Source of the DNA: Thaumarchaeota archaeon 13_1_40CM_4_38_7
GTDB lineage: Archaea; Thermoproteota; Nitrososphaeria; Nitrososphaerales; Nitrosopumilaceae
Reading direction: 5' to 3'
Length of the DNA stretch: 35,151 nucleotides
Assembly: GCA_001917995.1 (NCBI GenBank)
Contig: MNFB01000074.1
Span: forward strand, 10,277-45,427
The position numbers and the translations under genes are program-made. A model generated the notes under the pieces. The model saw nothing but the letters and a program-made list of their open reading frames with translations. It had not been told where the DNA came from and ran no database searches. Positions 13,690-17,566 of the stretch are shown here, piece after piece. The number at the start of each line of letters is the position of its first letter. Positions within the stretch are counted from its first letter, which is position 1.

Positions 13690-14862
13690 TCATGACTTTA
13701 CTTCGGCAAGTCCTACTATGGCTCTTGGAAAGACATCTTTTCGTTGTTCGCTAGGTTTCAAATATTGTTCATAACCTGTGACAGGCTGCAACGATTTTTC
13801 ATCCATGATTTTGTAATTTGATATTCTTGCTTTTCTGAATATTTGTTCTAAATCATCTTTTGAGAACCATTTTGAATAAACACCTTTCTTTGTCCTAACG
13901 ATAGAATTTTCTTCATCTTGTTTTGAATTTATTATTTCGCCAACAGTTTGTTTTACTTCTCTTCCATAGAAGGTGCGTAACCCAAAATCTTTGAAGCGTT
14001 TCTTATTAAACACTGAAATTATTATCGTCCCATGTGGTAAAGCCAATCGCTTCATCGATTCTAATAGTTGTACTTGTAAATCCATGTTTTCTTGATTGCC
14101 TAACGTTTGAAAGGTGCACACTATTACCTTGTGAATTCGGTCAAGACCTTTGTGGTTGAGATGAAAGTTCTGCGCTATACCAGTTATTGGGAATATTCTT
14201 TCATAGAGATACTGTTCAAGTCCATATTTCTTCATCAATCTAATAGAATGGGAGATCATTTCTTCAGAATAATCAATTCCAATTACATACCGTAGATTCT
14301 TGTCATACATGTCATCATATCGGTATAGGACATCAGTCTCTGAATTTTTTTTCAATTCTCTACAAGAGTTAACGCTCATCTTAGACCCCAGTAATATCAG
14401 AAAACGTCCTGGACCAGATCCTGCGTCTATGAAAGCTACTTCTTTATTCTTTAAGAGACTGTTTAGATAATTTACTATGAAAATGTCTTCAAATCGTTCA
14501 TACGCACGAGCAGACCATGCAGCCTGTGTAGGATGAACTACGTTTCTGAAATATTGTTTTGCCATAGACTTGCTAGCTAATATGCCCTTGACTAGGTCTT
14601 GTTCATTTTTGGATAGTTTGCTTAAGTGAAGTCCATCCTTAATCTTTCGTGCTAAGATTCCTTTAGTACAAATTTCTTCTCTTATTTTGGATGGCAAGAG
14701 ATTCAGGTAGCCATTTTTAAATGAATAAATTGAATTACAGTTAATACATTGAAGATCTATTTCATTGTGTTCTTGTGATTTTCCGTTTCTGAATTTTAAA
14801 GACGAGCCACACGTAGAACAGTTTGCTATGGATAAGTTTTTGTGAATCAGTGTTGACATCAT
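13690..14862 (-). CDS. SAM-dependent methyltransferase with N-terminal zinc ribbon
   Basis: CSTCGSSLKF...CINCNSIY zinc ribbon; AFIDAGSGPGRFLILL motif I; VIGIDYSEEMI motif. Confidence 0.85.
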   Translation of the reverse strand: MMSTLIHKNLSIANCSTCGSSLKFRNGKSQEHNEIDLQCINCNSIYSFKNGYLNLLPSKIREEICTKGILARKIKDGLHLSKLSKNEQDLVKGILASKSMAKQYFRNVVHPTQAAWSARAYERFEDIFIVNYLNSLLKNKEVAFIDAGSGPGRFLILLGSKMSVNSCRELKKNSETDVLYRYDDMYDKNLRYVIGIDYSEEMISHSIRLMKKYGLEQYLYERIFPITGIAQNFHLNHKGLDRIHKVIVCTFQTLGNQENMDLQVQLLESMKRLALPHGTIIISVFNKKRFKDFGLRTFYGREVKQTVGEIINSKQDEENSIVRTKKGVYSKWFSKDDLEQIFRKARISNYKIMDEKSLQPVTGYEQYLKPSEQRKDVFPRAIVGLAEVKS

Positions 14863-15653
14863 TTCCTGTCCTGACTAACTACATCTTCATCGAATTGTTC
14901 ACTATTCTTTTTCTTGGTTACTTTTTGTTTTGAAGCACCTTCTTCCTTTATGTATGCATCATATGCCCGGTAAACATTTCTAATACACCTCAGATAGTTT
15001 TCAAAGTCTGGTAACTTTATTGGATCATAGAAATAATTTGAGTGTACTTTGGTAAATGTATTTTTTGAGATTCCTACTCCTTCAAGTATGTGTATAGGCT
15101 TACTATCTACTGAATGAACCCATCCAAGAGATCTAATCTTTTCTATCATCTCTTCAAATGTGGTAGCCTCATTGGTAACTATTCGTAAAATAAAATCGTA
15201 GTTTTGTCCTTCTCCCTGTACAAGATCTATTGCAGTTACAATTCCGTATTGTCTGCTTATCTCAACTAAATTGCTATACATCTCAGAATAAGGAATTACA
15301 CGACGTTCAAATAGTGGATTTTGAGTTTTTATGAAAGTATACCACTGATTATCAAACAATTTGCTTGGGTCTACTAGTATCCATTTTATCTTGTCATCCT
15401 TTTTGCTGTCTTCTGTGTTGTTATGTTCTAGTATAACGCCTTTTTTTACAAGTTCATCTATCCTGTTTTTGACATTCTCTCTGGAAAGAACATAGCCATG
15501 TTCCTCAAGATCTTTATTTGCAGTGTCTGGCGTTGCCCCGCTCTGCAACGCATGAAGAATGAGTAGATCTAGTGGGCTAATTCCATTCTTCGTCAGATTT
15601 TTTATAGGTACAACATTGTCAGGACTGTCTGTTCCTCTTCCTACCATACTCAT
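14859..15653 (-). CDS. Winged-helix, Lrp-like regulator-type protein
   Basis: LLILHALQSGATPDTANKDLEEHGYVLSRENVKNRIDELVKKGVI HTH pattern; 4-bp overlap with downstream methyltransferase. Confidence 0.65.
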   Translation of the reverse strand: MSMVGRGTDSPDNVVPIKNLTKNGISPLDLLILHALQSGATPDTANKDLEEHGYVLSRENVKNRIDELVKKGVILEHNNTEDSKKDDKIKWILVDPSKLFDNQWYTFIKTQNPLFERRVIPYSEMYSNLVEISRQYGIVTAIDLVQGEGQNYDFILRIVTNEATTFEEMIEKIRSLGWVHSVDSKPIHILEGVGISKNTFTKVHSNYFYDPIKLPDFENYLRCIRNVYRAYDAYIKEEGASKQKVTKKKNSEQFDEDVVSQDRK

Positions 15654-15808
15654 AAGCAGCCATCTGTTGTTAAAAATATTTACGACGAATTTGTCACAGA
15701 AATGTTGAAAATCACTGTTTTGTACTTGAGTTGGCCCTTGTAAGTGTATAACGTTTTTGTCGCAAAAACAGCTTGAAATGATTTATAATTTTTAATCATA
15801 CTTGAGAC

Positions 15809-16039
15809 ATGGCTTACATACCAAAAGTCGAAAGGATTGAGGAATCTCAGTGCAGTGTTTGCTCACACATCTGTGCCAGACTATGTGTGACATGTGGAAC
15901 TGCATTTTGCAACAAGCATCTGCTATCACATGCAAGCTTGCACAAACAAGCATACCATGAGATTGTGCGAACAATACTTAGGGATGGGCTTACCGATGTT
16001 GCAAAGCATCTCGTTTCCTTTACACTAACAACTGTGTGA
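15809..16039 (+). CDS. Small treble-clef/B-box-like zinc-finger protein (76 aa)
   Basis: CSVCSHICARLCVTCGTAFCNKHLLSHASLHKQAYHE: multiple CxxC and CxxH pairs; TATA-like element tttataattttt about 25 bp upstream. Confidence 0.75.
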   Translation: MAYIPKVERIEESQCSVCSHICARLCVTCGTAFCNKHLLSHASLHKQAYHEIVRTILRDGLTDVAKHLVSFTLTTV

Positions 16040-16045
16040 TACGAG

Positions 16046-16104
16046 GATATCCCCTGAAGAGTCCGTGAGATCCGGACGAAACAACTCAAAGTTGTCGGGA
16101 GAAC
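16046..16104 (+). ncRNA. Hammerhead ribozyme, type I topology (stem I open)
   Basis: Stem I UCCC(16050-53)/GGGA(16097-100); core CUGAAGA 16054-60; stem II GUCCG(61-65)-UGAGAUC-CGGAC(73-77); GAA 78-80; stem III ACAAC(81-85)-UCAAA-GUUGU(91-95); H17=C16096 giving a GUC cleavage triplet. Confidence 0.9.
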
Positions 16105-16114
16105 AAGGAGGTGA
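16105..16114 (+). promoter_or_regulatory. Strong Shine-Dalgarno AAGGAGGTGA
   Basis: Near-perfect complement of the anti-SD, 10 nt before ATG 16125 and 8 nt after the predicted ribozyme cleavage site. Confidence 0.8.
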
Positions 16115-16124
16115 AATGTGAAAG

Positions 16125-16781
16125 ATGAACGAAAAAATACCAAAAAGAGAATGGCAATCTAACTACAGTAAGAATGCTAAAGACAAGACTCAGCTTCTTC
16201 TTGCTGCAAGTGCTCTAGCATCGCTGCTTGTTGTAAGTAGCCTAGGATTTGCTTGGGCAGAGACAGATAATTCAGATGTCACAATAAAGGCAAGTGATGA
16301 CATAAAGAACAACCCAACTGCAATGAAAATACTCAAAAACATAGAATTGTTCAAGAAAAGCTATGCTGCATTACAGCAGAGGCAACAGCTTCTAGATCAG
16401 CAACAAAAGTTCATAGAAGAACAACGCCGTATTGCAAACCAATACTTGCAAATTGATCTTGCTGGCATGAATAACTTGAACAATCAAAATCTGCCAAGAA
16501 ATGCATATGCAACATTCGTATCAAAAGTGGATAACTCTACACAAGGCCTCTTCTGGGACCAGTTTGGTTTCATGGAAGACAAGCTGAGCAAGGCAAATCA
16601 AGCAAAGAACAATGTTCTCAAAAATGGAGGTAGTGTGAAAGAAGCTTGGCAAGCATACAATGACGCACTTGCAATGCACAAGAGCGATCTTGTAAGTGTT
16701 AACAAGAACTTGAATGTCAAGTATCACTTTGCGGATGCAAAGACACAGAACCTATTCAACAAGTACGGAAGGGTTCAGTAA
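16125..16781 (+). CDS. Secreted/anchored coiled-coil hypothetical protein
   Basis: TM/signal segment LLLAASALASLLVVSSLGFAWA followed by Gln-rich helical region. Confidence 0.85.
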   Translation: MNEKIPKREWQSNYSKNAKDKTQLLLAASALASLLVVSSLGFAWAETDNSDVTIKASDDIKNNPTAMKILKNIELFKKSYAALQQRQQLLDQQQKFIEEQRRIANQYLQIDLAGMNNLNNQNLPRNAYATFVSKVDNSTQGLFWDQFGFMEDKLSKANQAKNNVLKNGGSVKEAWQAYNDALAMHKSDLVSVNKNLNVKYHFADAKTQNLFNKYGRVQ

Positions 16782-16897: not shown

Positions 16898-17566
16898 TTA
16901 CCTAGCTGCTGCAGTTACTTCTATTGGCGATCCTGACTGACCGGCATAGAGAGCTATACTGACTGGTGAACTTGCGTCCAGAGATGTCAGTAGATTTTGT
17001 TGTACCTTGAAGTAGACAATTCCCCTTTGCCCAGGATATAGAGATACTGGACCATTTTGCGAAGTCAAGCAAAGAGTTGGATTCTGTGAGACTGATCCTA
17101 ACTGCATGATGAGTTTTCCAGAAGTATTCGTACATCCATTAGGTGCTGCTACACCTACTGCTGTGCCATTATTCAGTTCTCCATTAGGTGAGTTGGGTGA
17201 GACTTTCATCGATGTGTAGTTTAGCGCCCATTGGAGGTTACTTACAGTCACCCTAGTTTGATTGGTATCAGCATACCAGTTTTGAAATGGCACTGCTTGG
17301 CCGTGAACCGTTAATTGATCAACTGACAATATTTTGTCGCCACTGTTTCTGAAATCTGCTGCGCCCCATGCCCAACCGGAACTGCCTGTTTTATCTATCC
17401 ACAACTGGATTCCTGTGGTGGTAAGTGCTTGGTTATTTGCTTTATTCTGGAAAGTGCTTGTACCATATAGAACAACACCTGTTGCAAGTACAACAGATGC
17501 CACTACAATAATCATAGTGGTAAGTACAGTGCTAATTGCTTTCCTTTTGTGCATCTTTCTTAACAT
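16898..17566 (-). CDS. Archaeal type IV pilin/archaellin-like protein
   Basis: Class III signal peptide-like MHKRKAISTVLTTMIIVVASVVLATGVVLYGTS followed by beta-rich domain. Confidence 0.85.
   Translation of the reverse strand: MLRKMHKRKAISTVLTTMIIVVASVVLATGVVLYGTSTFQNKANNQALTTTGIQLWIDKTGSSGWAWGAADFRNSGDKILSVDQLTVHGQAVPFQNWYADTNQTRVTVSNLQWALNYTSMKVSPNSPNGELNNGTAVGVAAPNGCTNTSGKLIMQLGSVSQNPTLCLTSQNGPVSLYPGQRGIVYFKVQQNLLTSLDASSPVSIALYAGQSGSPIEVTAAAR

Follow-up and report, generated by a model that had tools for sequence, protein, structure and literature searches.

The window, that is, the whole 35,151-nt stretch of DNA analysed here, carries on its forward strand two open reading frames and, between them, what is very likely a type I hammerhead ribozyme. 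The upstream cistron (15809..16039, + strand; stop codon at 16037-16039) encodes a 76-aa protein with seven invariant Cys/His residues arranged as C-x2-C-x7-C-x2-C-x4-C-x2-H-x3-H. Its Pfam matches were sub-threshold only, and the name zinc finger rests on the Cys/His pattern because the structure model was of low confidence and had no PDB match. The downstream cistron (16125..16781, + strand; ATG at 16125) encodes a 218-aa protein, mostly helical and without a family match, which is predicted from its sequence to be exported, with a signal-like N-terminal segment ending in AWA. The assignment of a function to this protein by its fold was dropped, as the model was of low confidence (pLDDT 55.6) and no PDB match was found at E <= 0.001.

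A TATA box (TTTATAAT, 15782..15789, + strand) lies 19 nt before the zinc-finger ATG and is conserved in orthologues, where it mostly reads GATTTATAATTT and stands about 20 nt before the ATG. It is the only conserved TATA box of the unit, and across 23 loci the 110 nt preceding the ribozyme contained no TATA-like box. Because the sole conserved TATA box precedes the zinc-finger gene and none precedes the ribozyme, one promoter serving two cistrons with the ribozyme between them is the simplest reading and a likely one; co-transcription is inferred, and a weak internal promoter without a TATA match remains possible. Upstream of the TATA box, the inverted repeat TTTTG-TCG-CAAAA (15755..15767, + strand) occurs once in the window in the form TTTTG-N3-CAAAA, against 0.19 expected, and in most orthologues its arms are kept and its centre is variable. 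We consider it the likely operator of the divergently transcribed gene for a 264-aa winged-helix-like protein (14859..15653, - strand), a probable regulator that is present in the genomes bearing this cassette; the assignment is inferred from sequence alone. A Shine-Dalgarno sequence (AAGGAGGTG, 16105..16113, + strand) is located 3' of the predicted cut, in the short leader of the exported-protein gene, and orthologues have a similar sequence. Elsewhere in the window, a 359-aa frame (994-2073, - strand) contains two copies of a segment of about 75 residues (PASITEGNTTRKEQLQMLQGNPQIHSK...) as an in-frame direct repeat, and another frame (16898-17566, - strand) weakly matches the pilin subunit UpsA (NF046073, sub-threshold).

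The ribozyme extends from stem I to stem I at 16050..16100 (+ strand, as are all its parts). Stem I pairs UCCC (16050-16053) with GGGA (16097-16100) and encloses, in order, the core box CUGAAGA (C3-A9, 16054..16060), in which G16059 is G8 of hammerhead numbering; stem-loop II, GUCCG-UGAGAUC-CGGAC (16061..16077, arms 16061-16065 and 16073-16077); GAA (G12-A14, 16078..16080); stem-loop III, ACAAC-UCAAA-GUUGU (A15.1 to U16.1, 16081..16095, arms 16081-16085 and 16091-16095); and C17, with the predicted cleavage site at 16096^16097. The initial annotation had described a type I hammerhead with all core positions in an intergenic region. Its sequence, coordinates, core, three stems and cleavage site held base for base, as did the placement, since stem I lies 10 nt past the stop of one frame and the cleavage site 28 nt before the ATG of the next; what it missed, and what matters more, is that the site keeps a constant position within a conserved two-gene unit.

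Scanning the window for the core with three stems, each of 4 bp or more, identified exactly one hammerhead site. The 4-bp-stem motif had 0 matches in 400 dinucleotide-matched random windows (+ strand), and a 3-bp-stem motif had 12 matches in 400 random windows (both strands). Thermodynamic folding did not make the element stand out in the window (z = 0.37), and when cassette copies were folded, the hammerhead fold was near, and mostly not at, the energy minimum, an alternative often being favoured by up to about 5 kcal/mol. Folding energy was thus set aside as uninformative evidence for the ribozyme.

Conservation, covariation and synteny

The window comes from a genome of the genus Ca. Nitrosotalea, acid-soil members of an ammonia-oxidising lineage. 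We searched for the downstream gene in 37 genomes of this genus, that of N. devanaterra among them. In 20/20 close orthologues of the genus, a complete type I hammerhead was observed directly 5' of the gene (19 at E < 1e-50 and the broken copy L029), and none was found upstream of the more distant paralogues L028 and L030. On the complete chromosome of N. devanaterra (LN890280.1), the core is located at 1192041. The sister genus g5, of the same family, has the ribozyme at the same place (genomes L007, L053 and L056 and the named record L085; the g5 sequence also occurs in the MAG 'TA_20', L077), which brings the syntenic loci to 24, 20 from the genus and 4 from g5. The zinc-finger gene was present in 19/37 genus genomes, the same ones as the ribozyme, the locus of the twentieth (G403) being truncated at the edge of its contig; all three parts, the ribozyme and the two genes, were absent from the other 17. 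The probable regulator follows the distribution of the cassette at 78-88% identity, contig edges aside. In both genera the order is methyltransferase-like gene, regulator, zinc finger, ribozyme, exported protein and a convergent gene for a fibronectin-III protein, with one ribozyme copy per genome. The presence or absence of the cassette may, however, go back to a single clade-level event, so that the co-occurrence should not be counted as 37 independent observations.

The hammerhead core (C3-U4-G5-A6-N7-G8-A9, G12-A13-A14 and A15.1-U16.1) was present in the window and in 24/24 syntenic loci, with CUGANGA invariant throughout. Position 17, which must be H in a hammerhead, is C in the window and C or A in the syntenic relatives, and the topology is that of type I, with stem I open and stems II and III closed by loops. 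The identity of the catalytic core was 1.000 in 231/231 pairs of orthologous loci, including 13 pairs in which the mean identity at fourfold-degenerate sites of the neighbouring gene was 0.30; over the 231 pairs, stem identity was 0.97-1.00. The stem III loop drifts freely, and the unpaired catalytic residues are invariant in 24/24 loci. Conservation across relatives also extends to the loop II sequence UGARAYN and to A residues on the 5' side of stem I, which bear on the tertiary contact between loop II and stem I that in hammerheads gives fast cleavage at low Mg2+; such a contact is no more than a possibility here. Between the zinc-finger stop and the core there are 10-16 nt in the genus, in most cases exactly 15, and 24-27 nt in g5, the sequence of this spacer being variable; the cleavage site lies 20-30 nt from the ATG across loci, in a conserved leader resembling GGGAGAAAACUAGGAGGUGAAA. 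No further conserved structured segment was found between the two frames in the orthologous loci.

Compensatory changes were observed in relatives in stem II (GUUCG/CGAAC and GUCUG/CAGAC), with three double-change cells in this stem within the family. We extended the comparison to 37 archaeal hammerheads, among them diverged copies from Bathyarchaeota and from further families of the order. In this alignment, 99.0% of cells were paired, against at most 53% in slid controls, and double changes occurred in 10/14 pairs (3, 3 and 4 pairs in stems I, II and III, respectively); 62 double-change cells were observed versus 14.3 after shuffling, and 0/500 shuffles scored as high. Thus, three helices with compensatory changes surround the core. 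The alignment was fitted to the model and leans toward the structure; the core blocks anchor it nearly uniquely, and the Rfam model RF00163, which is independent of our own alignment and model, ranks the same syntenic site first. The reading as a type I hammerhead is therefore supported both by the 24/24 syntenic loci and by covariation in all three stems, and of the outcomes that the initial annotation had said would refute it, a lack of compensatory changes is answered by the many that were found.

A second such outcome, the lack of a covariance-model hit above threshold, does hold in the literal sense for the Rfam cut-off. With RF00163 the site scored 27.6 bits, at an E-value of 7.5e-5 in its own genome, and the syntenic sites scored 22-28 bits, below the curated cut-off of 34 bits, which is a curation threshold and not a defining property of hammerheads; the cut-off was exceeded in 0/20 syntenic loci and 0/37 genus genomes, and no Rfam family reached its own cut-off anywhere in the window. 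The same model nonetheless put the syntenic site first in 13/37 genus genomes (E 7e-5 to 8e-3) and gave no match at E <= 0.05 in 14 control genomes, which indicated that the cut-off is conservative here; the ribozyme was left unannotated because its score falls below it. Taken together, these results make it very likely that a genuine type I hammerhead, conserved across the loci, lies at 16050-16100. As an RNA it is ordinary, and what is unusual is its fixed cellular place; its self-cleavage is inferred.

Stem III is just 3-4 bp long in several Nitrosotalea copies. In L019, L020, L023 and L024 only the palindrome ACAAUAUUGU remains of it. Two molecules could pair through this palindrome, and dimeric cleavage in some Nitrosotalea is a possibility.

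Other archaeal hammerheads and known systems

A 400-genome scan with RF00163 under stricter filters missed even the window's own copy, and our own models, R1 and R2, were built instead. A strong match to the broader model was found in 9/398 sampled genomes of the phylum, 6 of these in this genus and g5. The RF00163 hits L004, L006 and L008 and the weak R1 hits L066-L068 had incomplete motifs and were dropped as chance matches.

The diverged archaeal copies are of two kinds, those among virus-structural-like genes and those flanked by genes that appear to be cellular, where many lie at a stop codon; the names of their neighbours are our own reading of the translations and not database hits. The first kind comprises L061, L063 and L064, where the hammerhead lies beside tail- or capsid-like genes in apparent proviruses of Nitrososphaeria. 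In L059/L164 and L062 it lies between a cupredoxin-like gene and a following signal-peptide gene, and in L005 and L060/L069 between pairs of secreted-protein genes. In the Bathyarchaeota L116, L146 and L160 the core begins 5 nt past the stop of a gene for a 163-aa secreted protein, and in L160 gene and ribozyme form a tandem duplicate (at 524 and 1295, reverse complement). The matches at 1501 in L062 (U4 to C) and in L065 (C3 to U) have a changed core with intact, covarying stems; such variants may be inactive or tolerated. Among viral contigs, L221 contains up to eight matches to the hammerhead pattern in one stretch and L196 and L244 three, in a single orientation.

The element shares with RF00163 (Hammerhead_1) the core CUGANGA...GAAA...NUH, an open stem I, closed stems II and III and a full-length alignment (1-45), but it scores below the cut-off and its stem I is only 4-5 bp, with no visible extension. 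The same core and the same 7-nt loop II signature occur in prokaryotic type I hammerheads whose loop II reads GUGNRAYNC (Legionella, Patescibacteria, clostridia and viral contigs); several of these likewise precede Shine-Dalgarno-like sequences, and their published contexts are often phage-related. We had considered this signature as the mark of an archaeal subfamily and rejected the idea, as it occurs in Legionella, other bacteria and viruses.

The nearest precedent for the role proposed below is, by analogy, the HHphage hammerhead of the haloviruses HF1/HF2, which lies 13 nt before a start codon and in which the 5' end of the transcript was mapped to within 3 nt of the cleavage site (PMC3088659). 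Both are archaeal and stand just ahead of a start codon; however, the HF1/HF2 ribozyme is viral and has a core variant with a short insertion, whereas that of the window has a consensus core, is intercistronic on a cellular chromosome and was kept through speciation. The glmS ribozyme is likewise a self-cleaving RNA in a prokaryotic mRNA leader, but it has a different fold and needs a metabolite cofactor, and the element described here shows no apparent ligand site.

Proposed role and rival explanations

We propose that the ribozyme is cellular, is inherited vertically and divides the transcript of two genes into two mRNAs. We regard this as likely on the basis of the anatomy, the conservation of catalytic residues, covariation, synteny and promoter placement; there are no RNA data, and co-transcription, cleavage in the cell and an effect on expression are all inferred. 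The energies that often favour another fold, the short stem III of several copies and the Rfam score below the cut-off also speak against it. The promoter with the TATA box at 15782-15789 would drive transcription of both genes with the ribozyme between them; the RNA would fold just past the zinc-finger stop codon and cut itself at 16096^16097. Of the two products, the zinc-finger mRNA would have the folded stems II and III at its 3' end and terminate in a 2',3'-cyclic phosphate; the mRNA for the exported protein would begin with a 5'-OH, and its leader of 28 nt (GGGAGAACAAGGAGGUG...) would contain the Shine-Dalgarno sequence. Cyclic phosphate and 5'-OH ends are established hammerhead chemistry. 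The purpose would be to uncouple the stability and translation of two cistrons, one for a cytoplasmic and one for an exported protein; of the purposes considered, this is the best supported, the effect on expression being inferred. A bolder reading, which is merely possible, is that cleavage is gated by translation of the upstream cistron. Stem I starts about 6-12 nt past the upstream stop codon in the genus, with the spacing kept and the sequence varying, so that stem I would be blocked while a ribosome terminates on the zinc-finger frame, and cleavage would have to wait until the upstream cistron had been read. Other archaeal hammerheads also lie at or just after a stop codon (Bathyarchaeota L104, L116 and L146; also L164 and L069).

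An alternative that we consider unlikely is an allosteric switch, in which a metabolite, an ion, pH or a protein toggles cleavage and so controls the exported-protein gene in the manner of glmS. The position in a 5' leader ahead of a Shine-Dalgarno sequence would suit such a switch, the invariant flanks around the short stem I could hold a site for a ligand or protein, and the hosts inhabit acid soils. However, there is little room for an aptamer, with 7 nt in loop II, about 2-7 nt in loop III, 10-16 nt to the upstream stop and 20-30 nt to the ATG, and neither a ligand site nor an appended aptamer was found in the segment between the two frames. The loop II signature, being common to unrelated bacterial and viral hammerheads, appears structural and not ligand-specific. 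Still less probable is a hammerhead-shaped element that is not cleaved and serves as a structured leader or protein-binding hairpin protecting or repressing the downstream mRNA. The evidence for cleavage is indeed sequence-based only, and the folding energies do not single out the hammerhead fold, but a plain hairpin would have no need of the unpaired catalytic residues, which never vary among the syntenic loci, and the stem III loop drifts while the stem pairs change compensatorily.

It is also very unlikely, and already largely refuted, that the ribozyme is merely left over from a virus or mobile element that carried it and has no role itself. Many prokaryotic hammerheads are found near phage genes (PMC3088659), and the diverged copies L061, L063 and L064 sit among virus-structural-like genes; against this stand the strict conservation across deep divergence, the identical chromosomal gene order in two genera and the single copy per genome. 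Neither the specific ribozyme pattern nor the exported-protein family was found in viral contigs, and the exported protein was not found in phage records. As for a chance match to the hammerhead pattern, only the sub-threshold Rfam score speaks for it; it is refuted by synteny and covariation, with the random-window simulation also against it, and is all but excluded. We thus retain the splitting of a two-gene transcript as the preferred reading.

Significance for prokaryotic hammerheads

A search of the open literature revealed no relevant paper linking hammerheads with Nitrosotalea, Nitrosopumilus or Thaumarchaeota. Gupta and Swati 2016 ('Hammerhead Ribozymes in Archaeal Genomes'; PMID 26758619), which that search did not cover, may list some of the sites; priority is therefore uncertain. 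The Rfam cut-off hides a whole set of archaeal hammerheads.

The role of prokaryotic hammerheads has been described as an open question (PMC6155905), because the copies known so far are dispersed and often lie close to phage genes, and to our knowledge the cutting of one message into two is not a demonstrated role of any hammerhead in prokaryotes. Here, a single-copy consensus hammerhead is fixed between the same two chromosomal genes in a large part of a genus and in its sister genus, in a lineage for which a complete reference chromosome exists, that of N. devanaterra; this makes a normal cellular role directly testable.
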